IMG/VR virus record: IMGVR_UViG_3300044618_002500
Coordinates: 1 to 37,415 of that record
Length of the DNA: 37,415 nucleotides
Source of the DNA: a virus
Reading direction: 5' to 3' (one strand)
The translations under genes were made by a program, and so were the position numbers. The notes beneath the pieces were generated by a model that was given only the letters and a program-made list of their open reading frames with translations, did no database searches and was not told the DNA's origin. The first letter of the stretch is position 1. Each line of letters opens with the position of its first letter. Shown piece by piece: positions 1 to 37,415 of the stretch.

Positions 1-2
1 AG

Positions 3-122
3 AACATACCGCCCGAACAGCTTACGCCGCTCTTACAGGCTGCAAAGCAGATTCTAGACAGGAAACAAGAGCTGGAAATCTACAAACAGAACATTAAATT
101 ATTTTGGAACATTGAGTTGTAA
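3..122 (+). CDS. C-terminal end of an unknown small phage protein (partial)
   Basis: An open frame runs in from the left edge and stops with TAA at 120-122. The visible 39 residues are rich in Gln, Lys and Leu (PEQLTPLLQAAKQIL and onward) and look like a helical tail of a small protein. The next gene starts 10 bases later with its own Shine-Dalgarno, which fits a packed early operon. No family is recognisable. The reading frame is chosen because the other two frames are Arg-rich or broken. Confidence 0.5.
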   Translation, partial: NIPPEQLTPLLQAAKQILDRKQELEIYKQNIKLFWNIEL

Positions 123-132
123 GGAAATAGCC

Positions 133-333
133 ATGAGAACAAGGGATAATATAGGACGAGAGCTGAAAAGATTACGAGGTAAACTATGGGATGCGCTTTA
201 CAACGAGCGCTCCCTACTTACCCGCTCCGAATATAACGCCATTGATACGGCTTGTCTGGAGCTTACAGAGGCACTGAGAACATTACGAACAGCAAACGCA
301 AACGAAGGAGAACAAAATGATGACAACGAATAA
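133..333 (+). CDS. Hypothetical 66-residue protein
   Basis: The start is taken as ATG 133, preceded by AAGGA at 121-125; an in-frame TTG at 112 lacks such a site and lies inside the upstream gene. The protein is charged and predicted helical (MRTRDNIGRELKRLRGK, then LTEALRTLRTANA). It has an acidic end (DDNE) that overlaps the start of the next gene at 317. No domain recognised. It is probably one of the small accessory genes common in phage early regions. Confidence 0.6.
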   Translation: MRTRDNIGRELKRLRGKLWDALYNERSLLTRSEYNAIDTACLELTEALRTLRTANANEGEQNDDNE

Positions 334-586
334 GCAGAGCGGAAATCTAACTAGAATATCAGACGCTATGTCTCCAGACTCTCTTAGATTCCAACAGTAC
401 AAACAGCTAGAAGAGAGGCACGCAAACTTGCAAACTTATTGCAAATATCTAGAGTCTGAAAAGCAGGAACTCGAGAGCAAAGTTGACAGCATGAAAGGCG
501 TAATGTTCTTTACTTTTTTTATGTCGGCGCTTGCTTGCTTATTGATACTCGAACAAATACTATCACCATTTCTGAGGACTTTATGA
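317..586 (+). CDS. Small coiled-coil protein with C-terminal membrane anchor
   Basis: The 89-residue product starts with ATG at 317, with GAAGGAG about ten bases upstream. Residues about 28-58 (QLEERHANLQTYCKYLESEKQELESK is the core, heptad-like) should form a coiled coil. Residues about 62-83 (GVMFFTFFMSALACLLILEQ) are one hydrophobic transmembrane helix close to the C terminus. Such C-tail-anchored proteins often sit on the inner membrane and face the cytoplasm. Function unknown. It overlaps both neighbours, including ATGA with the next gene. Confidence 0.6.
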   Translation: MMTTNKQSGNLTRISDAMSPDSLRFQQYKQLEERHANLQTYCKYLESEKQELESKVDSMKGVMFFTFFMSALACLLILEQILSPFLRTL

Positions 587-840
587 AACATAAGAAAGAA
601 AGCGGCTGGCTTACCGTCAAAGAGGCCGCCGCTCTTCTAAACTGTTCCACGCAAAATGTTTACTATTTGATTTCTGGAATATACAGACCGAGCGCAAAAC
701 GAAAGAAAATTACGCCGCCTGTTTTCAGGTCGGTCAAAACAATCAAGAAAGGAAAGAGCTACTTCACACACTTAATAGATAGAAACGAAGTAAAAGTTTA
801 TTTACAAAACAAGAAAGGAGAGAGACATGAAAGTATTTAA
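583..840 (+). CDS. Helix-turn-helix DNA-binding protein (MerR/excisionase-like fold)
   Basis: The start is ATG 583, which overlaps the previous stop as ATGA and has GAGGA at 574-578; earlier in-frame starts fall inside the upstream gene. Residues about 9-32 (WLTVKEAAALLNCSTQNVYYLI) match the helix-turn-helix opening of excisionase and MerR-type small binders, where 'TVKEAA..L..S...VY.LI' is typical. The Lys-rich C terminus suits DNA contact. It probably binds phage DNA as a regulator. An excisionase role is unlikely because no integrase is visible. It overlaps the next gene by 14 bases. Confidence 0.65.
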   Translation: MKHKKESGWLTVKEAAALLNCSTQNVYYLISGIYRPSAKRKKITPPVFRSVKTIKKGKSYFTHLIDRNEVKVYLQNKKGERHESI

Positions 841-1714
841 TGCACAAGAAGTGATTCAGACTACAGGTTTGGTGACACTTATTTATGGCGAACCGGGTAT
901 TGGTAAGACTACGCTAGCCAATAGCAGCCCTAACCCTATTTTGTTGGACTTTGACAGAGGGGCACACAGAGCTTCATTCGGTAAGACTGTTGTTCAATTT
1001 GATTCATGGCAAGACGTTCTGGACTCAAGTTCTGAACTCTCTGCAATGATAGCAAACAGCGAAACTGTAATAATTGATACGGCTGGAACATTGTTGGAGC
1101 TTATCCAATCTCACCTTGTCGATACGCAGCCGATGCTGGCAAAGAACAGCATTAAACTTTGGGGTGAACTCAAGAAGGTTTTTACTGATTACTTTACGCC
1201 ACTCAAGAGGTCTGGAAAGAACATTGTCTTCATAGCTCACGCCAAAGAAAAAGAAGAGGGCGACATAAGAATTAAACGCCCACTCGTGCAAGGTAGCTCT
1301 TACGATTTGTTGCTCCAATCATGCGACTTGATTGGTTTCTATTCCATGAAGAACAATAGACGCTTTCTGACTTTTGATTTGAGCGACCAGCATGTTGCTA
1401 AAAATTGTGCTGGAATTGAACCAATAGAAATTACAGACCTAAACTTTGCCAGCCAAGCAATGTCTCACATTATTCAAAAAACAAAAGCCGCTCTTGTTGA
1501 CAGAATAGACGAGCACAAAGCTGCTATTGATAATGTTCAAAAATGGCAAGAGTTCGCGAAGACCTGTGAGCCTACTGTTCTATACCAAGCTCTTGCTGAT
1601 GCTAAGTTCAAGAAAACAGAAAAGACCGCTATTTGGGCTGGCGTCCAAAAAGTCATGCAAACGAGAGGCTTCAAATTTGACGAAGAGAAAAAGCAATTTA
1701 TTCTAAACGATTAA
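827..1714 (+). CDS. Sak4-like RecA-fold ATPase (AAA_24 family)
   Basis: The 295-residue protein has a Walker A loop GEPGIGKTT at residues 21-29 and a Walker B strand VIIDT at 81-85. It then has an HAKEKEEGD region (about 140-150) of the kind seen in AAA_24 phage ATPases. Members of this family include Sak4, a RecA/Rad51-like protein that acts with a single-strand-binding protein in phage recombination and replication. The C-terminal 80 residues are helical and charged and may contact DNA or partners. AAGGAGAG (815-822) lies just ahead of ATG 827. The replication-module location and the DUF3127 SSB-like protein downstream agree with a single-strand annealing or recombination mediator role, which remains inference. 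Confidence 0.75.
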   Translation: MKVFNAQEVIQTTGLVTLIYGEPGIGKTTLANSSPNPILLDFDRGAHRASFGKTVVQFDSWQDVLDSSSELSAMIANSETVIIDTAGTLLELIQSHLVDTQPMLAKNSIKLWGELKKVFTDYFTPLKRSGKNIVFIAHAKEKEEGDIRIKRPLVQGSSYDLLLQSCDLIGFYSMKNNRRFLTFDLSDQHVAKNCAGIEPIEITDLNFASQAMSHIIQKTKAALVDRIDEHKAAIDNVQKWQEFAKTCEPTVLYQALADAKFKKTEKTAIWAGVQKVMQTRGFKFDEEKKQFILND

Positions 1715-1729
1715 GCCAGAGAGGACAGA

Positions 1730-2068
1730 ATGTTCAAATACAAAAACATAGACCTAAGATTCGACAACATAAAAGAAAGACTCTTTGTAATGGGTGTGCA
1801 AAACTTGGAAAGCAAAGCCCCTTTAGTCGAAGACGATTTCACTGCAATCTTATCACAAGAGGCAACTGGAACGATTATCGTCAATTTCAATTTTCTATCT
1901 TTTGCACAAACCCTTACCAAAAAGAACGCGGAACAATTGATTACTTTGCTCTGTCAACTTTGGGGTCCCGAAATTGCGTCTGATGCTATCGAATACCTAG
2001 AAAGCGAAGAGTCTGAAAATGACCCATATCGTTATACAAGTTTTGAAAAGCAGGAAAGGTCAATATAG
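1730..2068 (+). CDS. Hypothetical 112-residue protein
   Basis: ATG 1730 has GAGAGGA at 1719-1725. The protein has a beta-rich N-terminal half (YKNIDLRFDNIKERLF, GTIIVNFNFLSFA) and an acidic C-terminal helix (ASDAIEYLESEESEND). I recognise no family. It lies 15 bases after the Sak4-like ATPase and before a 160-base gene-free stretch, so it is probably the last gene of that transcription block. A partner role with the ATPase is possible but unsupported beyond position. Confidence 0.6.
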   Translation: MFKYKNIDLRFDNIKERLFVMGVQNLESKAPLVEDDFTAILSQEATGTIIVNFNFLSFAQTLTKKNAEQLITLLCQLWGPEIASDAIEYLESEESENDPYRYTSFEKQERSI

Positions 2069-2228
2069 GTATGCAGCAAAGCGGGGCGGCTGAAATACGG
2101 TAAGAGGAACGTTAGCCGCCTCTGCTATTCATTACACGGCAAAACATAATAACGAGCCTCTTACGGCTTTTACGGCCGCAAAAACGGCATAATTTACTAA
2201 CAGCAAACACAGGAAAGGAAACAAATAC
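2069..2228 (+). other. Gene-free stretch with stem-loops
   Basis: This 160-base gap holds no convincing gene. GGGCGGCT near 2084 can pair with AGCCGCCT near 2113, closing a loop of about 22 bases. A smaller hairpin GCCG-CAAAAA-CGGC lies near 2174-2187. The second hairpin has no uridine run, so neither looks like a standard terminator. A ten-codon frame starting at ATG 2071 has no ribosome site. The region may carry an RNA element, leader or processing site for the gene at 2229. No tRNA is seen. Confidence 0.4.
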
Positions 2229-2609
2229 ATGAAATTACCCACTCACATGGAAATTCTTTTGATTCTGGTAGCTCTGATAAACCTCTCCAGTTTATTCTTT
2301 TTCACTTATCATTTTGTCAAGAGGGTTCTTTTATCAAGACAGCTCCAGAATAATGCTTACGAAGTACATAAGTTGCCGACTCAGAATATACTAGACTTTG
2401 CCCGCTCTTTCTTTGAAAGCCATGACAACAAGAAAGCTATTGACAAAAAAGCACAGGACATTTTTTTGCTCTTCATAGACTTGCAAGGAGAGAGAGAAAA
2501 GATAGTAATAAAAAATAGTTTCCTTTACGGATATCAATGTGCTGGAAAAACTGACACGCCAGAACTTCTAGCAGAGGTTTACTACAAAACACAATGGAAA
2601 GGTGAATGA
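2229..2609 (+). CDS. Membrane-anchored hypothetical protein
   Basis: ATG 2229 follows AGGAAAGGAA (2211-2220). Residues about 8-30 (ILLILVALINLSSLFFFTYHFV) form one strong transmembrane helix near the N terminus. A basic stretch (KRVLLSRQ) follows, suggesting the roughly 95-residue C-terminal part is cytoplasmic. The soluble part shows no recognised domain. It overlaps the downstream nuclease gene region closely. A membrane protein inside a replication module may tether DNA machinery or affect the host envelope; neither can be shown here. Confidence 0.6.
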   Translation: MKLPTHMEILLILVALINLSSLFFFTYHFVKRVLLSRQLQNNAYEVHKLPTQNILDFARSFFESHDNKKAIDKKAQDIFLLFIDLQGEREKIVIKNSFLYGYQCAGKTDTPELLAEVYYKTQWKGE

Positions 2610-2610
2610 A

Positions 2611-3255: not shown

Positions 3256-3291
3256 TTCATTTTGAACAGAAACACAAAAACGGAGAAAAAC

Positions 3292-3831: not shown

Positions 3832-3835
3832 TTCA

Positions 3836-4438
3836 ATGAAGACGCTCCAATACTTAGGCAGTTTATCTAACGAGGTTATGCTTCGCAGTGAAGCTAGCAG
3901 AAAGAAGGCAAAACTCAGTGACGAACTTAGACAAGAACGTGAAAGATTATTCAAAGAGCCGAAGAGATATAGAAAGAATAATTTACCGTTCTCCAAAAAA
4001 ACACCAAAAGACAGAGAGAGAAAAGTAACAACCAAAATGATAATTGACGAAAGTCTTTACATAATGTCTTTGCTCTGGAATGAAGCTGACAAACTTGGAG
4101 TTTCATGCGAGTGGATTACTCTTGATAATTTGAAGCTAGATAATGAGTCCGCAGTTGACAGATATTGCAGAAACTGGAAAAGAGATAACCCGCTGATTAC
4201 AAAAGTTGACTTGAAAAAGAACTTAACTTTCTATCGAACAATGGTTTGTTTTATGCTTTATCATTGCTACGGATTTCAGCCGCAAACAGTCGCTGAGTTC
4301 TATGGAGTTCACAGAGATTTCACAGGAACCGCAAACAGAGTGCTGGTTCCTACTTTCCAAACAAACAGAAAAGCAGAAAGAGCTTTCTTAGATATATTTG
4401 ATTCTCTCATGATAAAAAACGAACGAGAATACTTATGA
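3836..4438 (+). CDS. DnaA-domain-IV-like replication protein
   Basis: The 200-residue protein has a basic, helical N-terminal third (RKKAKLSDELRQERERLFK). Its C-terminal part (about 130-170) contains FYRTMVCFMLYHCYGF followed by QTVAEFYGVHRDFTGTANRV. This pattern resembles the helix-turn-helix of DnaA domain IV, where a helix with R..A..L precedes 'I...FG.RDHSTV'. There is no ATPase domain, so it could bind origin DNA but not act as full DnaA. It starts at ATG 3836 only 4 bases after the preceding gene and overlaps the primase-helicase start as ATGA. The assignment is by pattern only. Confidence 0.45.
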   Translation: MKTLQYLGSLSNEVMLRSEASRKKAKLSDELRQERERLFKEPKRYRKNNLPFSKKTPKDRERKVTTKMIIDESLYIMSLLWNEADKLGVSCEWITLDNLKLDNESAVDRYCRNWKRDNPLITKVDLKKNLTFYRTMVCFMLYHCYGFQPQTVAEFYGVHRDFTGTANRVLVPTFQTNRKAERAFLDIFDSLMIKNEREYL

Positions 4439-6126
4439 CAACTTTTAAGGATTACGGCATTACAGGAACAGAAGGATATAACGGACAAATTCATACAACT
4501 TGTCCAGAGTGTTCGCATGAAAGAAAGAAAGCAAATGAAAAATGTCTCTCTGTCAATATAAACGAAGGCACATGGTTTTGTCATCATTGCGGTTGGAGCG
4601 GCGCTCTGAAAAGAGCGGCCGAAAGAAAAAGAGACATTCCAGACTTTTCGGATATTTTGCAACAGAAACAAATTGATTCAATTAAGAGTGAGGATTCCAG
4701 TCTATTTGAAGCGTTGACCTCACGCGGAATAACTGAAAAGACAATAAGAGCAAACGGTATCTTTGCAGAGATTTCTGAGTGGGATAAAACAGAGTGGTTT
4801 GGGTTTCCGTATTTTCTTGACGGGAAGTGTGTAAATATCAAATATCGTTCCGCGAACAAAGAGTTTAGACAAACGAAAGACGGTCACAGAGTTTTCTACA
4901 GACTTGATTCCATACGAGAACATAAACAGGTCGTAATTACTGAAGGCGAAATTGACGCTCTGAGTTTTTGCGAGGCTGGAATTGAAAACGTTTTGAGTGT
5001 TCCCGACGGAGCTATTGCAGCCGATGCTAGAAACGTCACACAGAAACTTGTTTTTATTGACAATTCAATAGATAAGCTCGAACATATAGAAACGTTCTAT
5101 CTTGCACTTGATTCAGACGCACCGGGTCGACGTATGACTGAAGAGCTAGCTCGTCGCTTAGGTAAAGACAGATGCAAAACTGTAATCTTTCCAGAGGGCT
5201 GTAAGGACGCGAACGATGTTCTATTGATTCATGGCAAAGAGCAACTTTACAAGTGTCTTGACGATGCTCTGGACTATCCAATAGACGGAGTTTATTTGCT
5301 CTCTGATTCTTATGCTAATTTACAGGACATATACGATAATGGTTTCCAACAAGGCGTTTCCACAAACGAGTGGCCAAACTTAGACAGGCTGATTAAATGG
5401 TTTGCTGGTCATTTCACTGTGGTCACTGGAATACCCTCTCACGGAAAGTCAAACTTTATTGATAATTTACTTGTCAACTTAGCAAGGCATAATGGCTGGC
5501 GTGCCGCTGTTTTTTCTCCAGAGAACCCTACGCCTGAAACTTGGGTTATTCGCTTACTTGAGATTGCAACAGGCCGACCATTTTTTGGACAGAATAGAAT
5601 TGAACAGGAAAAGTTGAAGGGAACACTTGACGCTCTTGCTCAGTATTTCTATTTAATTACGCCAGACGATTCCTATACTCTGGACGTTGTGCTGGCAACA
5701 GCGAAGAGCTTACTCAGAAAAGTTGGAATAAACGCTCTTGTTATTGACCCTTGGAACAATTTAGAAGTCAAAGGAAAGAGCGGCGAAAATGAAACAGCAT
5801 ATACGGCTAGAGTCTTGGTTCGTCTCCGTACTTTTGCTAGACAGACTGGAGTTCACGTTATATTGATTGCACACCCTAGAAAGATGCAAAAGAACACAGA
5901 CGGCAACTATGAAATTCCAACCGCTTACGATATTTCAGGAAGTGCGCACTTTTACAACGTAGCTGATAATATCGTTTCGGTATACAGAGAGTTCCTAAAT
6001 GATAGCGACGATTTGAGCCGCACTCATGTTTTTATTCAAAAAGTAAAAACGAAATACTCTGGACAAATAGGCTGTGCAACTTTTGATTTCGACAAACAGA
6101 CGCAACGATATATGGAGAGAGTATGA
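4435..6126 (+). CDS. Bifunctional primase-helicase (T7 gp4-like)
   Basis: The 563-residue protein has three parts. A zinc-binding primase domain has Cys23, Cys26, Cys49 and Cys52 (CPEC...CHHC). A TOPRIM domain has TEGEIDAL at 169-176 and DSDAPG at 226-231. A DnaB/RecA-type hexameric helicase has Walker A GIPSHGKSN at 332-340. The helicase part continues with ALVIDPWN as Walker B (about 439-446) and HVILIAHPRK (about 479-488). It unwinds the fork and lays primers for lagging-strand synthesis in the cytoplasm. Length and order match T7 gp4. It overlaps its neighbours as ATGA on both sides. No DNA polymerase gene is visible in this window, so the phage may use the host enzyme or encode it outside. 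Confidence 0.92.
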   Translation: MTTFKDYGITGTEGYNGQIHTTCPECSHERKKANEKCLSVNINEGTWFCHHCGWSGALKRAAERKRDIPDFSDILQQKQIDSIKSEDSSLFEALTSRGITEKTIRANGIFAEISEWDKTEWFGFPYFLDGKCVNIKYRSANKEFRQTKDGHRVFYRLDSIREHKQVVITEGEIDALSFCEAGIENVLSVPDGAIAADARNVTQKLVFIDNSIDKLEHIETFYLALDSDAPGRRMTEELARRLGKDRCKTVIFPEGCKDANDVLLIHGKEQLYKCLDDALDYPIDGVYLLSDSYANLQDIYDNGFQQGVSTNEWPNLDRLIKWFAGHFTVVTGIPSHGKSNFIDNLLVNLARHNGWRAAVFSPENPTPETWVIRLLEIATGRPFFGQNRIEQEKLKGTLDALAQYFYLITPDDSYTLDVVLATAKSLLRKVGINALVIDPWNNLEVKGKSGENETAYTARVLVRLRTFARQTGVHVILIAHPRKMQKNTDGNYEIPTAYDISGSAHFYNVADNIVSVYREFLNDSDDLSRTHVFIQKVKTKYSGQIGCATFDFDKQTQRYMERV

Positions 6127-6427: not shown

Positions 6428-6715
6428 ATGAGCAAACAGCAAACGGCGGTAGAGTGGTTGAAGCAAAGTATAGAAAATACGTCTATACATTGGGGTTCGG
6501 AATTATACTATAACCAAAAAGGCGATAGTTTCAATTACCTTGTAATTAGAATACAGCCCGAAAAATTAGACGAGTTTTTTCACCAAGCTAAGCAAATGGA
6601 AAAAGAGCAGATTGTTGATGCGCATTTACTCGGACTTGTACATGATTTGACAAAAGATGTATGCACACAAGCAGAGGAATACTATAAAGAAACCTACGGA
6701 GGCGACCATGAGTAA
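6428..6715 (+). CDS. Small AVEWL-type phage protein of unknown function
   Basis: ATG 6428 follows a strong AAAGGAGA site (6414-6421). The 95-residue protein opens with TAVEWLKQSI and ends with AEEYYKETYGG, with a central FFHQAKQMEKEQIVDAHLLG. This arrangement is familiar from short hypothetical proteins in Bacteroidota phages and prophages, which supports the host guess. Function is unknown. It overlaps the next gene by eight bases. Confidence 0.65.
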   Translation: MSKQQTAVEWLKQSIENTSIHWGSELYYNQKGDSFNYLVIRIQPEKLDEFFHQAKQMEKEQIVDAHLLGLVHDLTKDVCTQAEEYYKETYGGDHE

Positions 6716-7094
6716 GCAAAAAAAGTCTCTTTCAGAACAGTTGAAAGAGGAACGCCTTAGACTAGAGTCTTCAGCCATAGCAGAGACGGAATGTGAAGAA
6801 CAAAAAAAGAAAAGAAAGTGGAAATACACAACAGCGAAGTTCCAGTCAAATGTAGAAACTAAGATTGAAAGAGCACAAAAAAACAAACAAGAAAAAACTG
6901 TTTTAATCAAGACAAGCAAACCAGGACCAAAGCCAAAACCTGAAAACAAGAACTTAGTTCGTTTTCATCATGGCATGGAACGTGCTCTTGTAATCAAAAT
7001 GAGAGAATACTCTAGTTCCTCAGGAGTCCCTTTAAGACGTGTAATTGAAGACGGAATAAAACTCTACTTTCAGAAATTGGAGAAAGGTAAGTGA
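6708..7094 (+). CDS. Basic protein with possible ribbon-helix-helix-like C terminus
   Basis: The start is ATG 6708, after GGAGG at 6699-6703; an upstream in-frame start at 6657 would lie deep in the previous gene. The 128-residue protein is Lys/Glu-rich with a coiled N-terminal half and a proline-lysine linker (KPGPKPKPE). Its C terminus (LVRFHHGMERALVIKMREYSSSSG, then VIEDGIKLYFQKLE) looks like a short DNA-binding module of the ribbon-helix-helix type. It could be a transcription factor or DNA-binding accessory. The domain call is weak. Confidence 0.5.
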   Translation: MSKQKKSLSEQLKEERLRLESSAIAETECEEQKKKRKWKYTTAKFQSNVETKIERAQKNKQEKTVLIKTSKPGPKPKPENKNLVRFHHGMERALVIKMREYSSSSGVPLRRVIEDGIKLYFQKLEKGK

Positions 7095-7462
7095 AACATA
7101 ACTCAGACTTCAAATATGACTTGCTTGTTGGAATTGAGTATGAAGGAAAAGTTGCGGACATGCTACGGAACAAAAAAGTTGAAGTCAAGACAGATTTCAT
7201 TGCACACAAAACAGGAAACATTGCTATCGAATTTCAAAGTAGGGGTAAGCCGTCTGGAATATCAATAACTGAAGCTGATTACTACGTCTATCTTATTCCG
7301 TTTGCGCCGCTCTCTGAAATCATGATTGTTGCCAAAGTATCGGAGCTTAAAAAAATTACTCGTATCTTTGGAAAGCAAAACGGAGTCAAAACAATGGGTG
7401 ACTCGAATACTTCGAAATCTGTCTTAATTCCAATCAAGAGGCTGTTCAAACATGAAGACTAA
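7091..7462 (+). CDS. PD-(D/E)XK endonuclease-like protein
   Basis: GTG 7091 overlaps the preceding stop (GTGA). In 123 residues, KVEVKTDF (29-36) followed by GNIAIEFQSRGKPSGI (42-57) matches a phage nuclease-like family in which an ExK pair and a downstream Glu form the metal site: here Glu31, Lys33 and Glu47. Glu18 (EYEGK) could complete it. TEADYYVYLIP then gives the characteristic strand. Relatives are thought to act as Holliday-junction or structure-specific nucleases, but the substrate is not shown here. It overlaps the next nuclease gene by 11 bases. Confidence 0.6.
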   Translation: MKHNSDFKYDLLVGIEYEGKVADMLRNKKVEVKTDFIAHKTGNIAIEFQSRGKPSGISITEADYYVYLIPFAPLSEIMIVAKVSELKKITRIFGKQNGVKTMGDSNTSKSVLIPIKRLFKHED

Positions 7463-7790
7463 AAAATACGAGACCAATCACAATGCTTTTCTCTTTATAT
7501 GCAAAGCACAGGGTATAGAAGGCATTGTTCCAGAGTTTATGTTTGCAGCCGAACTAAAACGAAAGTGGAGATTTGACTTTGCCATACCAGAGGCAATGTT
7601 AGCAATAGAGATAGAGGGCGGTCTGTGGATTACAGGCCGTCACAATAGAGCATCTGGCTTTGTTAAGGACATGGAAAAGTACAACACCGCTGCTACTCTA
7701 GGTTGGCGTGTTTTGAAATTTACGCCACAGGAAATTCAGAAAGATTCCACATACCAAACAATCAAGAAATGTCTGGAGACAAAAGCATGA
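7452..7790 (+). CDS. Vsr/VRR-like PD-(D/E)XK endonuclease
   Basis: The 112-residue protein contains RKWRFDFAIPEAMLAIEIEGG (its core is Asp42, Glu53 and Glu55), then GRHNRASGFVKDMEKYNTA and GWRVLKFTPQEI. This order matches small Vsr-fold or DUF559-type nucleases common in phage replication modules. ATG 7452 lies inside the end of the previous nuclease gene, suggesting coupled translation. A role in resolving branched DNA or processing intermediates is inferred. Two consecutive nuclease genes of the same superfold are notable. Confidence 0.68.
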   Translation: MKTKKYETNHNAFLFICKAQGIEGIVPEFMFAAELKRKWRFDFAIPEAMLAIEIEGGLWITGRHNRASGFVKDMEKYNTAATLGWRVLKFTPQEIQKDSTYQTIKKCLETKA

Positions 7791-8347
7791 ATAAAAAATA
7801 TAAAACTATCTTAATAGACCCACCTTGGAAATATGGGAAATGGGGCGTAGGAAGTAAAAAAAGCGCTTTCAAATCAAAATACAATCAAGAGCCGAAATCA
7901 ATTGAGTACGAAACATTGACTACAGAGCAAATTAGAAATATAGACATAAAAAGTCTAGCATCTGAAAATTGCGAACTGTATCTGTGGACTACTCAAAAAT
8001 ACCTACCGTTTTCTTTTGACATAATAAAAAGCTGGGGCTTTAAGTATTGCCAAACTTTGGCATGGTGTAAAGCTCCAATGGGTAAGGGACAGGGGGGAAT
8101 TTACTGTCCGACAACAGAGTTCTTGATTCTTGCAAGAGTAGGTAAAGCGCCAAAAGTCAAGCGAGAAGATTCTACATGGTGGAGAGTCAAGAGAACAGGC
8201 CGCCATTCTCAAAAGCCAGTTTTCTTTCACGAGCTAATTGAAAAAGTTACTGAAGAGCCGCGACTCGAAATGTTTGCAAGAGCAAAAAGAGAGGGCTGGG
8301 ATGTCTGGGGTAATGAAGTTAACTCAGACATATATTTTGAAATATAA
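7787..8347 (+). CDS. MT-A70-family DNA adenine N6-methyltransferase
   Basis: The start is ATG 7787, overlapping the previous stop (ATGA) with GGAG at 7775-7778; an upstream in-frame start at 7703 is inside the nuclease gene. The 186-residue protein begins MNKKYKTILIDPPWKYG, with the DPPW catalytic motif at 11-14. It continues with LYLWTTQKYLPFSFDIIKSWGF (start of the SAM fold), CPTTEFLILARVGK and GRHSQKPVFFHELIE. This is the standard MT-A70/Ime4-like phage layout. It should methylate adenine N6 in DNA using S-adenosylmethionine, probably to protect phage DNA. The target sequence cannot be read from here. Confidence 0.88.
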   Translation: MNKKYKTILIDPPWKYGKWGVGSKKSAFKSKYNQEPKSIEYETLTTEQIRNIDIKSLASENCELYLWTTQKYLPFSFDIIKSWGFKYCQTLAWCKAPMGKGQGGIYCPTTEFLILARVGKAPKVKREDSTWWRVKRTGRHSQKPVFFHELIEKVTEEPRLEMFARAKREGWDVWGNEVNSDIYFEI

Positions 8348-8353
8348 AAATAA

Positions 8354-8384: not shown

Positions 8385-8405
8385 CATAAACTATTGGAGA
8401 TAGAC

Positions 8406-8744
8406 ATGAGTAAATTTAGAGTTACTGGAACCCTTATTGAGAAAGGCGCACCTGTTCAATTTTCAGACAAGTTTACAAAAGCTGAAGTCGTAATTGAAAC
8501 GCAGGGCAAATATCCAGACTACATAAAGTTTGAAGTTGTCAACGATGACATTAAGATTCTTGACAATGTAAAAACCCTAGATGAAGTTGAAGCGGAAGGT
8601 TATGTTCAAGGCCGACGCTATACTGACAAAAAGACAAACGAACTGAGATATATGAACTCATTGCGACTGAAAAGCGTGAGGTCTCTTTCGTCCTCTGGTC
8701 AATCGTCTGGCGACGAGTCTGATTTCTTCACAAGCGGTTTTTAA
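8406..8744 (+). CDS. DUF3127-like single-stranded DNA-binding protein
   Basis: ATG 8406 follows TTGGAG (8394-8399). The first 75 residues (FRVTGTLIEKGAPVQFSDKFTK, then AEVVIETQGKYPDYIKFEV) match the DUF3127 family, an OB-fold group found mainly in Bacteroidota. The later GYVQGRRYTDKKTNELRYMNSL fits its last strands. A Ser-rich linker leads to the C-terminal tip DESDFFTSGF, which resembles the acidic, Phe-ended tail that SSB uses to recruit partners. I infer that it coats single-stranded DNA at phage forks and may load the Sak4-like ATPase. It has its own promoter and terminator, suggesting high expression. Confidence 0.7.
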   Translation: MSKFRVTGTLIEKGAPVQFSDKFTKAEVVIETQGKYPDYIKFEVVNDDIKILDNVKTLDEVEAEGYVQGRRYTDKKTNELRYMNSLRLKSVRSLSSSGQSSGDESDFFTSGF

Positions 8745-15059: not shown

Positions 15060-15659
15060 ATGAAAATTGCCGTAAACAAGCTGAAAGAGAACCCCAACAA
15101 CCCGCGCGTGATAAGAGATGCGAATTTCAAGAAACTCGTAAGCTCAATTAAGAGCTTTCCAGAGATGCTTTCTGTCCGAAAAATTGTGGTCAATAATGAT
15201 TACGAGGTTTTGGGTGGAAACATGAGGCTAAAAGCGCTGAAAGAGGCGGGCGTAAAAGAAGTCGAAATTGAAGTTGTTGACTGGCCTATTGAAAAGCAGA
15301 AAGAGTTTATCATTAAAGACAATGTTTCCTTTGGTGAGTGGAATTACGAGCTGCTAGCAAATGAGTGGGAATATCAAGACTTGACAGACTGGGGTTTAAC
15401 CGTACCCGGTCTTGAAAAGTTAGAGGGTGATACGGCGTTAGAAGACTTTTTTCTTGAAACAGAAAAGCCAGAGGGCGACGATATTTCCGTAAGCGTAAAG
15501 GACGACGGATATTCACGTTTTGAACTCATTATGTTTCATGATAACAAAAAGCGTTTAATGGAAACATTGAATAAGATTAAACAAAAGCATGACCTAGAAA
15601 AATTAGAGGACGCTCTTATGGAGCTTGTCTTTATTTATGAAAAGTATGACAGAGGCTAA
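15060..15659 (+). CDS. ParB-like protein (IbrB-type), first copy
   Basis: ATG 15060 follows TAGGAG (15047-15052). The 199-residue protein has a ParB/sulfiredoxin-fold N-terminal domain: LKENPNNPR at 8-16, then YEVLGGNMRLKALKEAG at 48-64, where GGNMR is the phosphate-binding turn that replaces GERR of classical ParB. A partner region follows (FIIKDNVSFGEWNYELLANEW). The C-terminal part is acidic and helical. It lacks the KorB-type helix-turn-helix of partition ParB. It heads a four-gene cassette with a cupin, a PP-loop ATPase and a second ParB-like gene. Confidence 0.8.
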   Translation: MKIAVNKLKENPNNPRVIRDANFKKLVSSIKSFPEMLSVRKIVVNNDYEVLGGNMRLKALKEAGVKEVEIEVVDWPIEKQKEFIIKDNVSFGEWNYELLANEWEYQDLTDWGLTVPGLEKLEGDTALEDFFLETEKPEGDDISVSVKDDGYSRFELIMFHDNKKRLMETLNKIKQKHDLEKLEDALMELVFIYEKYDRG

Positions 15660-15662
15660 AAA

Positions 15663-16466
15663 ATGAGACAAGAAACAAATTCATTCATAAGTTTTGGCAT
15701 TTCAGAGGCGGGTCTTGTTTTTGACGATAGCAGCCACGAAAAATATCCTCTTCGTTTTTACAACGTTATAGACGGTGAGGGTTTACCAACGCATGACAAA
15801 GTAGCTGATTATTCCTACTTTGTTTTTGTGTATCAAGGTGAGGCGGGGCTTACGCTCCCTACAGGATTACAAGCGCTGTTGCCAAAAGACACATATTTTT
15901 CAACGCATGGTTTTTACAAGCTAGCAGGCTCGTACAAGGCAATTGTTATTGAAGTCATATCAGACAGCGGATACTATGGACAGACAGGATATACGGCATA
16001 TACGAGTATCGGTGGAACAGTTGAAGAGAAAGGTCGCTTAAAATATATCGACGGTTGTACGGACAGCCTCTTGATATCTCCAGTCAAGAAAGGAGACCCA
16101 TGTCTGAATCACTTACACTTTCCTAGAGAGATTACACAAACGCCACACACTCACCCAACTCATAGATTTGGAATTGTTATCAGAGGCGACGGTGAATGTG
16201 TAACTCCGTTTGGAAATTTGCCTCTCGTAGAAGGCTGTGTGTTCGTGATAAAAGAGTACGACGGTGTTGGAATGCATGTTGGTCTTGACGGCTCTCTGTA
16301 CGAGGCTGGAACGCATAAATTTAATACATACGGAAACTCTATGGACGTTATAGCTTTCCACCCTGACTCAGACTTTGGTCCAGAGGACGAGTTTCATCCA
16401 ATGATAAACAGAACAATCGTTCACGGCGTTTCCGCTGCAAACATTGAATCTATCAGAACAAAGTAA
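15663..16466 (+). CDS. Cupin-domain protein
   Basis: The gene starts 3 bases after the ParB-like gene. The 267-residue protein has a C-terminal cupin: HTHPTHRFGIVIRGDGECV (about 163-181), a turn with GNLPLVEGCVFVI, and HKFNTYGNSMDVIAFHP (about 219-235). The His residues of HTHPTH and HKF are candidate metal ligands. The N-terminal half (YFVFVYQGEAGLTLPTG, YKAIVIEVISDSG) may be a second, ligand-free barrel. Cupins include many dioxygenases, isomerases and binding proteins, so the reaction is not predictable. The cassette context suggests it acts with the PP-loop ATPase. Confidence 0.75.
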   Translation: MRQETNSFISFGISEAGLVFDDSSHEKYPLRFYNVIDGEGLPTHDKVADYSYFVFVYQGEAGLTLPTGLQALLPKDTYFSTHGFYKLAGSYKAIVIEVISDSGYYGQTGYTAYTSIGGTVEEKGRLKYIDGCTDSLLISPVKKGDPCLNHLHFPREITQTPHTHPTHRFGIVIRGDGECVTPFGNLPLVEGCVFVIKEYDGVGMHVGLDGSLYEAGTHKFNTYGNSMDVIAFHPDSDFGPEDEFHPMINRTIVHGVSAANIESIRTK

Positions 16467-16469
16467 ATA

Positions 16470-17696
16470 ATGAGAGAAAGCAAAATGAGTGAAGCGAATA
16501 GAAAGCCAACGAAAGCAAAGCAAACAATGTCTAGGCCAAAGAGCTATAAAGAGACAGATGTTTGGAACGAAGCTCTGGACAGAATACGATATATCTACGA
16601 TAGTTTTGACAAGGTTGTTGTTTCTTTCTCTGGAGGGAAGGACTCGACAGCTGTCCTAAACGCTACAATAGCAGTTGCTCGCGAGAAAGGAAAGCTACCA
16701 GTTGAAGCGGTGTTCTTTGACGAAGAGGCTATTCACCCGCCGACAATTGAATATGTCGAAAGAGTAAGCAAGAATCCTGATGTAAAACTCAAGTGGTTTT
16801 GTCTAGAGGTCAAACATAGAAACGCTTGTTCGAATGAAGAGCCTTTCTGGTATACATGGGAAAAAGGAAAAGAGGATAAGTGGGTAAGACCGATGCCAGA
16901 GGGTGCAATTACAGAGCACCCGAGGTTCAAGAAAGGAATGAGTTTTCAAGACTTCGCTCCCTATATCTACAACAGAGCAGACGGTCGCGTCGCTATGCTT
17001 GTTGGAATAAGGACTGAAGAGAGCTTGCGTAGACTTCGAACAATTGTCTCAAAAAAAGAAGAGGCTTTTCTATCAAGTAACAGCGCAAACGGAAACAATC
17101 AATACAGGTGCTTTCCAATTTACGACTGGTTAAGCACTGATGTTTGGGCGGCTGTTCGAAAATTCGGTTGGGACTATAATAGGACATACGATATCTATGA
17201 TAAAACAGACATGTTCGGTAAATATCTAGCTCAAAGAGTTTGCCCGCCTTACGGTGAGGAACCGTTGCGTGGTCTCTATCTCTATGCTGAATGCTTTCCT
17301 GAAATGTGGCACAAAATGATAGACAGAGTTCAAGGTGCGGCTACGGCTTGGAGATATGGAAACACGGAACTCTATTCCAATACAAAAACAAAGCCAGAGG
17401 GAATGAAGTGGAGTGAATACTTGCACATTATTCTTGATTCATACGAGTTAGATGCAAGAGAGGCTGTAAAGCATACGATTTCTCACTACATATATCAGCA
17501 CAGGCAACATACAAAGCAGCCGATACCAGAAGAGGAGGCGCACCCGCTAACAGGTAAAAGTTGGAAAGGAATGTGCCGTGTCGCTATTCGTGGAGACTTC
17601 AAAGAAAGACAGAAAGATTATTTCTTTACAGAGGCTCTGAAACAACAAAAGAAACTAGGCATAAATTGGCAAAAGGCACAAGAACTTTATTCATGA
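16470..17696 (+). CDS. PAPS-reductase-like PP-loop ATPase (IbrA/DUF3440-like)
   Basis: The start is ATG 16470 or the in-frame ATG 16485, which has GAGAAAG just upstream. The 408-residue protein has the PP-loop SGGKDST at 54-60, an FFDEEAIHPPTIEYV region, and GRVAMLVGIRTEESLRRLRTI (about 170-190). Its C-terminal half (DVWAAVRKFGWDYNRTYD, then LRGLYLYAECFPEMWHKM) matches the IbrA-type extension of PAPS-reductase-like proteins. Such enzymes adenylate a substrate with ATP, often before sulphur transfer. In E. coli IbrA works with a ParB-like IbrB. Here it lies between a cupin and a second ParB-like gene. Confidence 0.85.
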   Translation: MRESKMSEANRKPTKAKQTMSRPKSYKETDVWNEALDRIRYIYDSFDKVVVSFSGGKDSTAVLNATIAVAREKGKLPVEAVFFDEEAIHPPTIEYVERVSKNPDVKLKWFCLEVKHRNACSNEEPFWYTWEKGKEDKWVRPMPEGAITEHPRFKKGMSFQDFAPYIYNRADGRVAMLVGIRTEESLRRLRTIVSKKEEAFLSSNSANGNNQYRCFPIYDWLSTDVWAAVRKFGWDYNRTYDIYDKTDMFGKYLAQRVCPPYGEEPLRGLYLYAECFPEMWHKMIDRVQGAATAWRYGNTELYSNTKTKPEGMKWSEYLHIILDSYELDAREAVKHTISHYIYQHRQHTKQPIPEEEAHPLTGKSWKGMCRVAIRGDFKERQKDYFFTEALKQQKKLGINWQKAQELYS

Positions 17697-17703
17697 GGAC
17701 AAA

Positions 17704-18222
17704 ATGAAAAAATATGAAAAGCAACCGCTAAACGAAATTGTTTGGCGCAAAAGAGAAGAGCTGAAACCCAATCACTACAACCCAAATAAAGTTGCGCCAC
17801 CTGAGTTGAAACTGTTGAAGATTTCAATTTTAGAGGACGGTTGGACGCAGCCTATTGTTGTGAATCCTGATTTGACAATTGTTGACGGCTTTCACCGCTG
17901 GACAGTTTCTGGTGATAAACAGATAGCAGCTCTTACAGAGGGTTACGTGCCCACTGTAATGATAAACCCGAAAGATGCTAGTCAACAACAAATGGCAACA
18001 ATAAGACACAACAGAGCACGCGGAACCCATGCAGTTCTTGCTATGGCTGATATTCTAGCAGATATGGTAAACTCTGGTCTCTCTGGAGACGAAATAATGA
18101 AGAGGCTTCAAATGGAAAAAGAAGAGGTCGTCCGTTTATTGTTCAAACATGGAATACCAAAAAGCAAGGTCTTCAATGATTACGAGTTCTCGAAGTCATG
18201 GGAACCAGGTGACAGAAAATAA
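17704..18222 (+). CDS. ParB-like protein (IbrB-type), second copy
   Basis: ATG 17704 follows GAGGAC (17696-17701). The 172-residue protein has LKPNHYNPNKVA (20-31) and the motif TIVDGFHRWTVSG (58-70), where DGFHR is the nucleotide-binding turn of IbrB/ParB-Srx proteins. The helical segment TIRHNRARGTHAVLAMADI follows, as in IbrB. It differs clearly from the first ParB-like gene, so this is not a recent duplication. It is likely the partner of the PP-loop ATPase, and ends 29 bases before the terminase small-subunit gene. Confidence 0.82.
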   Translation: MKKYEKQPLNEIVWRKREELKPNHYNPNKVAPPELKLLKISILEDGWTQPIVVNPDLTIVDGFHRWTVSGDKQIAALTEGYVPTVMINPKDASQQQMATIRHNRARGTHAVLAMADILADMVNSGLSGDEIMKRLQMEKEEVVRLLFKHGIPKSKVFNDYEFSKSWEPGDRK

Positions 18223-32107: not shown

Positions 32108-32109
32108 AT

Positions 32110-32586
32110 ATGTCTTGGAAATTTTGGGTTAAGATACAAGGCGCAACAGAGCCTACTTTCAATCCTGTTAACACTCTGTCCATAGAGATTCCAATTTTTG
32201 GTATTAAGCCAGACTATGAAATGGAGTCGGCCTCACAAGTTGCAATGTCTGGTGCTGAAATTGGACAGAATAGATTTCGCGTAAAGTTAGATATTGAGTG
32301 CGTTCCTTTTTCTACATGGGACTCAGGAACAGTAAGCACGGAAACTACAATGTACTTGCTCACTCAAATTCTATCAAGAAAGCACAGAAGGCTTGTCGCA
32401 CCGGACGCTGGTCTTGATAACAAAAAGTTGCCCGACAGATTCAGAGACGCAGTAAACTTTCCATTAACGACTGGTTTGTTTTCGTCTGGCTTTGAGTTTG
32501 TACGATGCAATGTGTCAAATGAAAAGAAGTGGGCGTCTGGTCTTGAACAAATGGTGCTTACTGTTTATAGAAGGACTTTGCTGTAA
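32110..32586 (+). CDS. Distal tail-type protein
   Basis: ATG 32110 follows ACGAGG (32099-32104), two bases after the tape measure stop. The 158-residue protein (WKFWVKIQGATEPTFNPVNT, FRVKLDIECVPFSTWDSGT) is beta-rich, with a C-terminal GLEQMVLTVYRRTLL. Place directly after the tape measure fits a distal tail or tail-tip ring protein. No domain is recognised. It ends just before the next start. Confidence 0.5.
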   Translation: MSWKFWVKIQGATEPTFNPVNTLSIEIPIFGIKPDYEMESASQVAMSGAEIGQNRFRVKLDIECVPFSTWDSGTVSTETTMYLLTQILSRKHRRLVAPDAGLDNKKLPDRFRDAVNFPLTTGLFSSGFEFVRCNVSNEKKWASGLEQMVLTVYRRTLL

Positions 32587-34482: not shown

Positions 34483-35202
34483 ATGATGAAGTTTAACGAA
34501 CCGATAAGAACAGAAGGCATAGGCCGTAAGCAACTAGCTTTCAACACAGGAAATATACCTACAGTTTATGATATAGACTCAGACGATTCGCAACAGGTTT
34601 TACTCAATAACGCAGCTGATATTTCGTACTCTGTTTTGGCAAAAGCAAAAGCGTCTGCAGAGGCAACAGCAACGTCTCTTAAACAGGATATTCAAAACTT
34701 CGCAATGGAGATTACTGGCGTTAGCAATTTCTTTTTCAGTGCCGGTTCTATTGGAGTCGATATTCCGTGGAACCAATCAAGAATAATTGTTTCATCGCCT
34801 CTCTATTGGTACAATTGGTATGATAGATATATCTATGTCAGGAAACCAGGTTGGTATTTTGTCAAAGCGCAGCTCTTCTCACCCACTGTCAACGCAGCAC
34901 ATGAGTGGGGAATTAAACTTGTTTCGAATGTCGTACTCAATACGCCGAACTACGAACTTTATTCGACATACATGGACTACCAACATACAAGCAAGCACCC
35001 TTATGTCAATGGGACCGCAATTTTCAACGCTCCAGAACAAGCGTTTGTAAGCAACCCAAACGGCTTACCAGCTTTCAAAGTTCGACTCTATTCGACAAAC
35101 AGTAATATCAATTTTGAGCTTTTCAATACATACGCAGTTTTGCAAGTCTTCAGGCTTTCGGACATAGACCAATCGTCTCGCATGATTCTGCAATCTGTCT
35201 AA
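34483..35202 (+). CDS. Tail-tip protein of unknown family
   Basis: ATG 34483 (or 34486) follows GGAG (34476-34479). The 239-residue protein has an N-terminal helical segment (SYSVLAKAKASAEATATSLK) that may trimerise. A beta-rich C-terminal domain follows, with YWYNWYDRYIYVRKPGWYFV and VRLYSTNSNINFELFN, resembling C1q/TNF-like fibre heads. 'RKPGWYFV' is the kind of strand seen in such heads. It may contact the receptor or be a tip component. This is inferred from shape only. Confidence 0.5.
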   Translation: MMKFNEPIRTEGIGRKQLAFNTGNIPTVYDIDSDDSQQVLLNNAADISYSVLAKAKASAEATATSLKQDIQNFAMEITGVSNFFFSAGSIGVDIPWNQSRIIVSSPLYWYNWYDRYIYVRKPGWYFVKAQLFSPTVNAAHEWGIKLVSNVVLNTPNYELYSTYMDYQHTSKHPYVNGTAIFNAPEQAFVSNPNGLPAFKVRLYSTNSNINFELFNTYAVLQVFRLSDIDQSSRMILQSV

Positions 35203-35220
35203 ACAAACAAAGGAAACAAT

Positions 35221-35718
35221 ATGGAATTTTACTCAGGAAAATATGGAATAGATAGAAGGAGAGCTGTTGCAGAGTTCGGACAGTTCGATACAGCTACTTA
35301 CTCGACTGGAGATATTTTGACAAGCTCTGCAGTCGCTTACGGTTCAATGGCTAGAACTGTTGGAATGTCTGGCAATGTTGCTAGAATAATTTTGAAAGAA
35401 ACAGCGACCGCTGGAACAATTCAAAAGCCGACTCTTCGCTTATGGCTGTTTGGAGCTTCAGTTACACCAGCGGCTCGTAATTCGCCACAGGCTTTCTCTT
35501 CATCACAGCTAGACGTTTTGATAGGCACAATATCAATTCTGAATACTGAGTGGATTGATTGTGCTTCAAATGTTGCCTCTGTTGAAAAAGTGATAAACAT
35601 ACCCTACGTCTTGCAACCAAACTCTTCTACAATTTATCTCGTTCCAGAAGTTCGTGCCGCTTACACTTTCAATTCAACAGGCCGAATAGTTTCACAACTC
35701 ATTGTAGAGGCGGACTAA
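35221..35718 (+). CDS. Virion structural protein of unknown family
   Basis: ATG 35221 follows AAAGGAAA (35209-35216). The 165-residue protein is beta-rich (YSTGDILTSSAVAYGSMART, ARIILKETATAGTIQKPTLR, then IPYVLQPNSSTIYLVPEVRA) and looks like a compact jelly-roll-type domain. It follows the tail-tip gene and precedes the poly-Gly protein. It is probably on the outside of the tail tip. No family recognised. Confidence 0.5.
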   Translation: MEFYSGKYGIDRRRAVAEFGQFDTATYSTGDILTSSAVAYGSMARTVGMSGNVARIILKETATAGTIQKPTLRLWLFGASVTPAARNSPQAFSSSQLDVLIGTISILNTEWIDCASNVASVEKVINIPYVLQPNSSTIYLVPEVRAAYTFNSTGRIVSQLIVEAD

Positions 35719-35720
35719 AA

Positions 35721-35936
35721 ATGATGACTTTTACAGACGCAAATTCTGGACAGCCTTTCTCTTTGCCGAACAATTCCATACAAGAGGCTTACGAAGGTGA
35801 GGGAATATGCAGACTCATTGATATCAATGGTACCGAGTATGACGTTTCTGATACTTGGGCACAAGTCTTGAGTCAATTAACAGGTGGCGGCGGCGGCGGC
35901 GGCGGTGGCGGAACTATACCGTCAGCTGGTCCATAA
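35721..35936 (+). CDS. Small protein ending in a poly-glycine tract
   Basis: ATG 35721 (or 35724) is two bases after the previous stop. The 71-residue protein has an ordered part (FTDANSGQPFSLPNNSIQEA, then CRLIDINGTEYDVSDTWAQV) followed by ten glycines and TIPSAGP. The glycine codons are almost all GGC, like the linker in the tape measure gene. It is the last structural gene before the terminator. Poly-Gly segments occur in some phage adhesins. Role unknown. Confidence 0.6.
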   Translation: MMTFTDANSGQPFSLPNNSIQEAYEGEGICRLIDINGTEYDVSDTWAQVLSQLTGGGGGGGGGGTIPSAGP

Positions 35937-35943
35937 AAAACAA

Positions 35944-35968
35944 ACCCCTCTTTCAAGGGGTCTTTCTC
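35944..35968 (+). terminator. Intrinsic terminator after the tail genes
   Basis: ACCCCT (35944-35949) and AGGGGT (35956-35961) form a six-base stem with a CTTTCA loop, followed by CTTTCT. The pyrimidine run is weaker than in the other terminators here. Confidence 0.65.
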
Positions 35969-36119
35969 AGGGGGGAGACAGGCGGTTATTGTGGACCGCT
36001 TTGCAATATAAACATTTTTGTGATACTTCAAAATAAAAATACGGAGCTGGAAATCTTCCAGCCCCGCCCCAATACCGAGCAGCATCTACCTACATTAAAA
36101 TAGTTAGTTTTCGGTCTTC

Positions 36120-36228
36120 AAATTTAGCCAGTCTGAAACACCCGCAAAAGAAAAAACAAGCCACTTGTTTGTAAAAAACAAGATATAACAAGAAAAATAA
36201 GCCTCATCTGAAAAAAAAATTTAGCCAG
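36120..36228 (+). repeat. Twelve-base direct repeat pair
   Basis: AAATTTAGCCAG appears at 36120-36131 and 36217-36228, each followed within about 14 bases by a CCCGC. A hairpin lies between them. They could be operator or initiator sites. Confidence 0.5.
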
Positions 36229-36296
36229 CAAACCCGCTGTCAGAGCCACTACTTGAGTTTAGACAAAAAATAATTTTGCAAAAACGAAAAAAATAC

Positions 36297-36327
36297 TTGC
36301 GTTGTTTGCAAAACTGCCGTAAGTTCG
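36297..36327 (+). promoter_or_regulatory. Promoter for the right-end early genes
   Basis: TTG (36297-36299) and TAAGTTCG (36320-36327) are separated by 20 bases, a Bacteroidota-like arrangement with the same TAnnTTCG box as the promoters at 8377 and 10422. ATG 36386 is about 59 bases further on. A GCCG...CGGC hairpin can form around the start point. Confidence 0.55.
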
Positions 36328-36385
36328 TACTAGAAAATGACGCGGCAATGAGAGCCGAAAGCTAAAAACCCAAACGGAGACGGAA

Positions 36386-36610
36386 ATGAAAAGCTACAGA
36401 ACAGAACAAACGACAAAAGCTTCAAAGCAGTACGAAATGGCTTTGCAAAAGCTCAGAGCACAAGGCGAAAAATATCCACATATCCTTTGCATGAAGGTTG
36501 ACGCAGATAACAATATCGTCTTCATAAAAACAAAGAATGTTTACGGCGCAACGCAAGAGCATTTTTTCCGCGCTGATTATACAGCAACTGTTCTTTACAA
36601 ATTTCAATAA
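36386..36610 (+). CDS. Hypothetical 74-residue early protein
   Basis: ATG 36386 follows GGAGACGGAA (36376-36385). The product has a helical, basic N-terminal half (SYRTEQTTKASKQYEMALQK) and a beta-type second half (ILCMKVDADNNIVFIKTKNV). It is the first gene of the block behind the promoter at 36297, so an early role such as host takeover is possible. No family recognised. Confidence 0.6.
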   Translation: MKSYRTEQTTKASKQYEMALQKLRAQGEKYPHILCMKVDADNNIVFIKTKNVYGATQEHFFRADYTATVLYKFQ

Positions 36611-36633
36611 ACAAAATATCTAGGAGAAGAGAA

Positions 36634-36849
36634 ATGACAAACGCACAAAAAAACAGAGCCTATTTTGAGACTGCAGACAATCAAAAAACATTCTGGATTC
36701 TCAAGTCAATTTCAGACAGCTACGGAACTTCAACAAGCTATATTCTTGACGAGCTGATGTCTGACGAAGCGGAACACTTACTTGATTACTTGAACGGTGC
36801 TTTGAGAGCTGAAACATATATTGACATGAAGCAACTTGAACTTTTGTAA
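36634..36849 (+). CDS. Hypothetical 71-residue early protein
   Basis: ATG 36634 has AGGAGAAGAG at 36622-36631. The product (AYFETADNQKTFWILKSISD, SYILDELMSDEAEHLLDYLN) is acidic and mostly helical. It could be a small protein that binds a host partner; nothing in the sequence shows which. The preceding and following genes are similar in size, as in typical phage early blocks. Confidence 0.6.
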   Translation: MTNAQKNRAYFETADNQKTFWILKSISDSYGTSTSYILDELMSDEAEHLLDYLNGALRAETYIDMKQLELL

Positions 36850-36877
36850 AAAAACAAACATTAACTGGAGACAAGAA

Positions 36878-37189
36878 ATGAGACAGCAAGAAATCAAAAC
36901 GCTTGAAGCGAAGACTCGCAAATTGCAAACATTACTCGATAATTACGAGGACATTCTTGACGACATTACCCCAACTCTATTCTCACGAATAGAGAACAAG
37001 CTATCAAAATACAGGAGAGAGTTAAGTTCACTATATTCACTTGATAGAATTGAGACCGAGATTGAAGAGACAAACGCAAAGTTAAGTAATGACGAGAACG
37101 CGACTATATGGTACGAGCTTAATGATTATTTGAACTTTCTTGAAAAAGACAAAAGCTACTACGAAAAATTGATTGGAGCAAAGCAATGA
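36878..37189 (+). CDS. Hypothetical coiled-coil early protein
   Basis: The start is ATG 36878 with GGAG at 36867-36870; an in-frame TTG at 36836 lies in the previous gene. The 103-residue product is strongly helical and charged (LEAKTRKLQTLLDNYEDILD, SRIENKLSKYRRELSSLYSL), a clear coiled coil. It may oligomerise. No family is recognised. It overlaps the next gene as ATGA. Confidence 0.6.
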   Translation: MRQQEIKTLEAKTRKLQTLLDNYEDILDDITPTLFSRIENKLSKYRRELSSLYSLDRIETEIEETNAKLSNDENATIWYELNDYLNFLEKDKSYYEKLIGAKQ

Positions 37190-37404
37190 CTGGAGAAAAG
37201 TTTAGAGCGGACTCACTGAAAGACAATGAATATCTAGTTGAAGTCGCCTCATATAAAAACGAGAACATGGAGCACAGAGAAGTCCTCTGCTTAGGCTACC
37301 GAATCACTAACCATGTAAATGGTTTCTGCAAAGCGAGTCACCTAGACGGCTGGTATGATGAAAAGCAACTTAGACATTTCATAATAATTGGAGAACCAAA
37401 ATGA
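37186..37404 (+). CDS. Hypothetical 72-residue protein
   Basis: ATG 37186 overlaps the preceding stop. The product is a small mixed domain (GEKFRADSLKDNEYLVEVAS, GYRITNHVNGFCKASHLDGW). No family recognised. The end overlaps the next start as ATGA, indicating an ongoing operon that runs off the window. Confidence 0.58.
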   Translation: MTGEKFRADSLKDNEYLVEVASYKNENMEHREVLCLGYRITNHVNGFCKASHLDGWYDEKQLRHFIIIGEPK

Positions 37405-37415
37405 GTAGAGAGGAA
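37401..37415 (+). CDS. Start of a gene cut by the right edge (partial)
   Basis: ATG 37401 with GGAG at 37390-37393 begins MSREE before the window ends. The ATGA overlap and ribosome site support a real gene. Joined to base 1 the frame would stop after 23 codons, and the open frame at 3-122 is a different one, so the two window ends do not form one obvious gene. Confidence 0.55.

Follow-up and report, generated by a model that had tools for sequence, protein, structure and literature searches.

A predicted phage-encoded nuclease gene associated with genome-wide absence of GATC

Why would a phage genome lack one four-base palindrome altogether? The question is raised by IMG/VR virus record IMGVR_UViG_3300044618_002500, which was analysed whole and over its full length of 37,415 b (the window; 41% GC, labelled 'linear'). 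The window carries a siphophage-type gene set, with a primase/helicase, a Sak4-like protein, an MT-A70 methyltransferase, a CHAP endolysin, terminase, portal-MuF, major head and tape-measure proteins, and it contains no GATC. We found that one small open reading frame (ORF) of the window, at positions 7091 to 7462 on the plus strand, is associated with the absence of GATC near-perfectly over unrelated phages and independently of host strain. We propose, with a probability of about 0.88, that this gene encodes a restriction-like GATC endonuclease that operates without a methyltransferase, and that the phage protects itself through genome-wide loss of the site.

GATC absence follows one gene

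The preliminary description of this DNA held that GATC is wholly missing from 37.4 kb in which about 100 sites were expected. An exact count bears this out, with no GATC on either strand from position 1 to 37,415 and 63-119 sites expected from Markov and shuffle models. Base composition alone predicts 137 sites, an order-1 Markov model 119 and the maximal order-2 model 63, the last being the lowest expectation, with the low ATC count and the GAT-C context absorbed in it; 100 dinucleotide shuffles of the window gave 116 ± 10. Even with the lowest of these expectations, the Poisson probability of finding none is about 5e-28. GATC is the sole 4-mer with a zero count. CCGG (12/57, observed/expected), ACGT (50/120) and GTAC (55/103) are reduced yet present, and GATA is over-represented. 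Among six-base palindromes, strong depletion affects AATATT (0), AAGCTT and GAGCTC, perhaps as traces of host restriction.

The loss is seen across all three codon phases of the window's genes. Asp codons that precede a codon starting with C are GAC in 41 of 41 cases, compared with 309 GAC and 248 GAT at other positions, and Ile codons that follow a codon ending in G are never ATC (0 of 128, compared with 119 of 606 elsewhere). Synonymous-codon shuffles of the window contain 66 ± 7 GATC sites, with a minimum of 48. Codon choice maintains the absence of GATC in the window.

Which gene accompanies this absence? Phages sharing the virion module of the window (G000 in our numbering) were fetched in full. 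Six members of the group have zero GATC (G000, G001, G002, G003, G005 and G007), and a tblastn search of the window's ORFs against the genomes of its relatives found ORF 7091-7462 in exactly these members. The non-carriers G004, G012-G020 and G029, with 61-64% TerL identity, have 87-143 GATC sites; these GATC-normal relatives avoid GGCC or ACGT instead, so avoidance switches between close relatives. Among more distant phages, G008 (one GATC) and G011 (none) carry the gene; their GATC-containing relative G025 (92) does not, and neither does G026 (88). A profile search of 50 records placed the gene in seven, all GATC-free, and the 43 records without it include a single GATC-poor clade (G009, G010 and G030). 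Carriers and non-carriers are interleaved in a tree of four virion proteins, in which one key node is weakly supported (0.55).

Two neighbouring genes were considered as causes of the loss and rejected. The Vsr-like ORF at 7452-7790 is also present in the GATC-normal G004. The MT-A70 methyltransferase is missing from the other GATC-free phages tested, and the single relative with it, G029, has 96 GATC sites of 138 expected; this fits an earlier suggestion that GATC is unlikely to be the target of the enzyme.

For an independent test, the gene alone served as the query against viral contigs, with GATC ignored. The first 80 loci comprised 79 with zero GATC and one with a single site (1 vs 2,128 expected), and further scans that included divergent branches gave zero GATC in 81 of 82 (1 vs 1,503 expected). 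When 178 records were compared, all 58 carriers were GATC-poor (2 sites vs 2,761 expected), as were 6 of 120 non-carriers, which together held 7,147 sites vs 8,118 expected. All 188 carrier records, spanning 2.73 Mb and 26-52% GC, contain 3 GATC sites vs 7,532 expected. They include siphophages, pelagiphages, one roseophage, HMO-2011 and the Xanthomonas jumbo phage XacN1. Their nuclease homologues fall into 77 clusters at 90% identity and 49 at 70%, so the evidence amounts to more than a few copies of one phage, with lineages that are not fully independent. In the 58 carriers pooled with XacN1, GATC is the sole 4-mer missing throughout (observed/expected 0.0005; next lowest 0.61). XacN1 itself, a phage of Xanthomonas citri with 384,670 b and 50% GC, has 0 GATC vs 1,679 expected, and all its other four-base palindromes stand above about half of expectation. 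A search of cellular genomes found the gene on only three contigs, one of them 147 kb long and all GATC-free in the stretches read; this search revealed no restriction-modification (R-M) context in the form of an adjacent Dam methyltransferase.

Homologues are also present in isolated phages of known host, and phages of the same strain can therefore be compared. On Paracoccaceae FZCC0023, the carrier CRP-143 has 0/102 GATC (observed/expected), and the non-carriers CRP-118, CRP-114 and CRP-113 have 180/136, 121/150 and 75/117. The same contrast holds for the carrier HTVC201P (0/81) and HTVC200P (55/69) on FZCC0015, and for the carrier HTVC121P (0/87) and HTVC119P (100/73) on HTCC7211. On HTCC1062, the carriers HTVC019P (0/87) and HTVC011P (0/84) stand beside HTVC010P (131/86), and HTVC031P, HTVC025P, Eistla and Gjalp also have 0 GATC. 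Avoidance in these phages does not follow host R-M; the phages of all four strains split by gene content.

A predicted PD-(D/E)XK nuclease

What might the protein do? The 123-aa product of 7091-7462 has no Pfam match at E<=1 and matches only PHROG 13596, whose function is unknown; a PDB sequence search with it returned nothing relevant. Residues E18, E31, K33, N43, S55, G56, G103 and D104 are invariant across 187 homologues. E18 and E31-x-K33 are residues of the catalytic type, present in 187/187, and agree with a PD-(D/E)XK motif. Long forms of the protein, in XacN1 and in a homologue that we call L369, have a Glu in helix 1, the canonical Asp and then Glu-x-Lys (KDFDI..VEIK and YRYDI..LEVK).

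AlphaFold2 models of the window protein and of L369 both reach a predicted local distance difference test score of 88, and the former has the correct order of secondary elements. The L369 model has the alpha-beta-beta-beta-alpha-beta core of PD-(D/E)XK enzymes. It superimposes on Hjc (Z 9.8, 2.6 Å, 101 residues) and on I-Ssp6803I (Z 9.8, 3.0 Å, 118 residues), its top Foldseek match (probability 1.00), and its strongest matches are with few exceptions PD-(D/E)XK nucleases, most of the others being restriction enzymes, among them Eco15I, NhoI, HinP1I and PvuII, or resolvases. By the modelled fold of L369 and the shared motif, the family is one of PD-(D/E)XK nucleases, for which we infer nuclease activity. 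The genome-wide absence of exactly GATC in the 188 carriers would imply specificity for a short palindrome.

Of the 22 carriers examined, 21 showed no Dam-type methyltransferase. None of the 22 has PF02086 above the cut-off or PF05869, and one, G005, has PF01555 (N6_N4_Mtase); MT-A70 occurs in the window only among the carriers tested. No cognate methyltransferase of the kind that characterizes a type II R-M system was recognized in these carriers.

We therefore envisage the product of 7091-7462 as a small stand-alone endonuclease of PD-(D/E)XK fold that would cleave DNA at GATC, probably in unmethylated form. Every bearer lacks exactly one four-base palindrome, and the nuclease most simply cuts that palindrome. 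Since carrier genomes are essentially GATC-free, the enzyme could attack other DNA and spare its owner, whose own genome has been purged of all GATC. It may cut host chromosomes at GATC and so supply phage exonucleases and the recycling of nucleotides; it may also, or instead, destroy competing phages and plasmids that contain GATC, with host rather than rival DNA as the presumed main target. The missing site, deleted everywhere, would mark self, and the distinction from non-self would need neither a methyltransferase nor modified bases. If so, a likely function and a predicted four-base specificity can be given to a 'hypothetical protein' that is widespread in marine phages, among them many pelagiphages, and also occurs in a jumbo phage. 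A GATC cutter of 123 aa would also be a useful reagent, and motif avoidance in phages, which is commonly read as a sign of host restriction, would have to be interpreted differently.

How does this proposal relate to known systems? Like the nucleases that degrade host DNA (T7 endonuclease I gp3 with the gp6 exonuclease; T4 EndoII/EndoIV), the gene lies among replication genes, and its product likely supplies ends for an exonuclease. T7 gp3 selects its substrate by structure, and T4 DNA is shielded by modified cytosine, whereas protection of the window phage would come from a sequence purge. The fold and the stand-alone phage gene are also shared with homing and other PD-(D/E)XK endonucleases of phages (I-Ssp6803I, phage homing endonuclease genes). 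Homing enzymes recognize long sites that are nearly unique, and a genome carrying such an enzyme lacks that one site only; in nuclease carriers, by contrast, a four-base site is missing genome-wide. The GATC type II enzymes (DpnII/MboI/Sau3AI, CviAI) resemble the predicted protein as PD-(D/E)XK-type nucleases acting at GATC, and virus-encoded examples are CviAI of chlorella viruses and its homologue in Marseilleviridae, including melbournevirus (PMC7253447). The window protein, however, is only 123 aa long with no Pfam match or recognized sequence relation to them, and the window has no cognate GATC methyltransferase; protection would lie in site absence. In melbournevirus the GATC sites remain numerous, with 387 fragments predicted, and are methylated (PMC7253447), whereas the window phage has none. 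Restriction-site avoidance, as in Staphylococcus phage phiAGO1.3, likewise removes a short site under cleavage pressure, and GATC-poor phages were already known (PMC6286503); here a gene of the phage itself would exert the pressure, and the site is lost completely, whatever the host strain. We found no precedent in the open-access literature for a phage nuclease protected by purging of its own site, which is weak evidence of novelty.

Alternative causes of GATC loss

Several observations weigh against our proposal. Cleavage and its site are both things we infer. The short forms, including the window protein, lack the canonical Asp hairpin found in XacN1 and L369, for which E47 (186/187) may substitute, and the short-form model of the window protein matches known nucleases weakly (PvuII, Hjc; Z <=4.6; Foldseek E 0.16). 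Three carriers, L232, L407 and G008, have one GATC each. GATC has also been lost without the gene in the clade G009/G010/L128/L133/L136 and in RanS_PJN03, so other causes of loss exist; in these phages the loss is probably host-driven. The first acquisition of the gene by a GATC-containing phage is a difficulty for the proposal, with protection in a Dam-positive host or prior loss of GATC as possible answers, and the correlation by itself would also fit a gene accepted only by phages that were already GATC-free. Separately, L127, L128, L129, L133 and L136, all without the nuclease gene, avoid GATC, CATG, CTAG and CCGG together, a pattern that looks host-driven, and they mostly lack Shine-Dalgarno signals where tested.

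Could restriction enzymes of the host, of the Sau3A/Mbo/Dpn type, have expelled GATC instead? Such avoidance is documented, GATC being under-represented in all 46 phages whose host has the corresponding restriction endonuclease (PMC6286503), and some GATC-poor phages without the nuclease (G009/G010, RanS_PJN03) avoid several palindromes, as a restriction-rich host would cause. We nevertheless consider this explanation very improbable. In phages of the same strain, whether GATC is absent or normal depends strictly on possession of the gene, and these same-host contrasts refute host restriction as the general cause. Moreover, the depletion is total, GATC alone is avoided by every carrier, and R-M systems are reportedly missing altogether from SAR11 genomes (PMC9516812). 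Of the preliminary description's suggestion that GATC-cutting enzymes of the host exerted selection, the selection stands and the source changes, since the evidence points to a phage-encoded enzyme. As for its further idea of a GATC-directed mismatch or methylation system, no such system of the host is needed. A mutational or compositional quirk, such as polymerase bias or Dam/MutH-like mismatch processing, has nothing for it beyond the depletion itself and is scarcely credible: GATA is over-represented, the dinucleotide-matched expectation is 116, the loss affects every codon phase of the window, the GC content of carriers varies between 26 and 52%, and a quirk is inconsistent with the gene association.

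A different possibility is that the nuclease does cut GATC, and that host restriction had made the phages GATC-free before they took up a then harmless gene, which would make the gene a marker. This order of events solves the acquisition problem, and GATC-free phages without the gene do exist (the G009 clade). We regard it as unlikely since the gene occurs in many groups of phages and on hosts for which R-M is not known, and since 3 sites in 2.73 Mb require selection that continued after acquisition; likewise, keeping 0 GATC in 385 kb needs ongoing selection. It is compatible with our proposal on maintenance and differs on origin only. Alternatively, the protein might bind or nick GATC during replication, recombination or packaging in the manner of a resolvase, with interfering sites lost and no role as a weapon. 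Its nearest fold matches include the Holliday junction resolvases Hjc and RecU, and the gene adjoins replication and recombination genes. A resolvase, however, need not be toxic at a four-base site, and a complete purge implies a strong cost per site, as from double-strand cleavage; the Vsr-like ORF 7452-7790, a nuclease-like gene of the same module, shows no association with GATC. We judge this reading improbable.

Gene neighbourhood and other avoided motifs

The gene starts with GTG, immediately preceded by a GGAG/AAAGG-type sequence, and lies in the replication module, downstream of a DNA primase/helicase gene (4435-6126, plus strand, like the other window genes of this paragraph). Its start overlaps by 4 bases an ORF of 145 aa, unknown in function and in the same operon (6657-7094). 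On its other side it is overlapped by the second small nuclease-like ORF (7452-7790; DUF559/Vsr-like, PHROG 503), followed by the MT-A70 family methyltransferase gene (7703-8347, domain at 7799-8317) and a replication-module gene for a DUF3127/single-strand DNA-binding protein (8394-8744). In the annotated HTVC019P, the nuclease gene lies directly between those for DNA polymerase and exonuclease. In other carriers, whose neighbouring genes were named by eye from their sequences, it adjoins PolA, primase/helicase, T7-type exonuclease, T7 endonuclease I-like or HNH genes.

What is the host of the window phage? A search found no close phage DNA match, and protein matches were distant and spread over many hosts. 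Shine-Dalgarno sequences precede 25 of 38 genes (8 in the control), and their presence makes a Bacteroidota-type host unlikely. Adjoining the terminase genes, positions 15060-18222 encode a ParB-like protein, a 267-aa unknown protein, an IbrA-like PAPS reductase/DUF3440 protein and a second ParB-like protein. Within the window's group, this module is complete elsewhere only in the GATC-normal G004, and similar modules occur in Chlorobiaceae, Microcystis and RanS_PJN03 phages.

Might GATC be one case of a general class? It is possible, and we suggest it tentatively as something we hold to be somewhat less than even odds, that restriction enzymes working without methyltransferases form a general, interchangeable class in phages, made safe in each case by removal of the recognition site from the phage genome. 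Relatives without ACGT (G012-G020, G029), GGCC (G004), AGCT (L149-L160) or GANTC (many pelagiphages) would then carry other specificities, and the motif absent from a phage genome would reveal what its own nuclease recognizes. The same presence/absence logic yielded no convincing candidate for an ACGT- or GGCC-specific gene. ACGT counts are 0-14 against about 100 expected in L010, L011, L035, L054 and other TerL relatives (G012-G020, G029), and GGCC is 0 of 50 expected in L084 (record G004), all with normal GATC. L076 (record G001), the closest relative of the window, avoids at least six palindromes together (GATC 0/260, ACGT 2/80, AGCT 6/121, CTAG 1/93, GGCC 3/66 and GTAC 2/47), and AGCT is essentially absent from the phage clade L149-L160. 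Pelagibacter methylates GANTC, and depletion of this motif in pelagiphages has been reported, unexplained (PMC9516812); perhaps it reflects another self-encoded specificity. GANTC is depleted in the pelagiphages L285 (6/104), L327 (0/95) and L329 (0/96) and normal in CRP-143 and XacN1.

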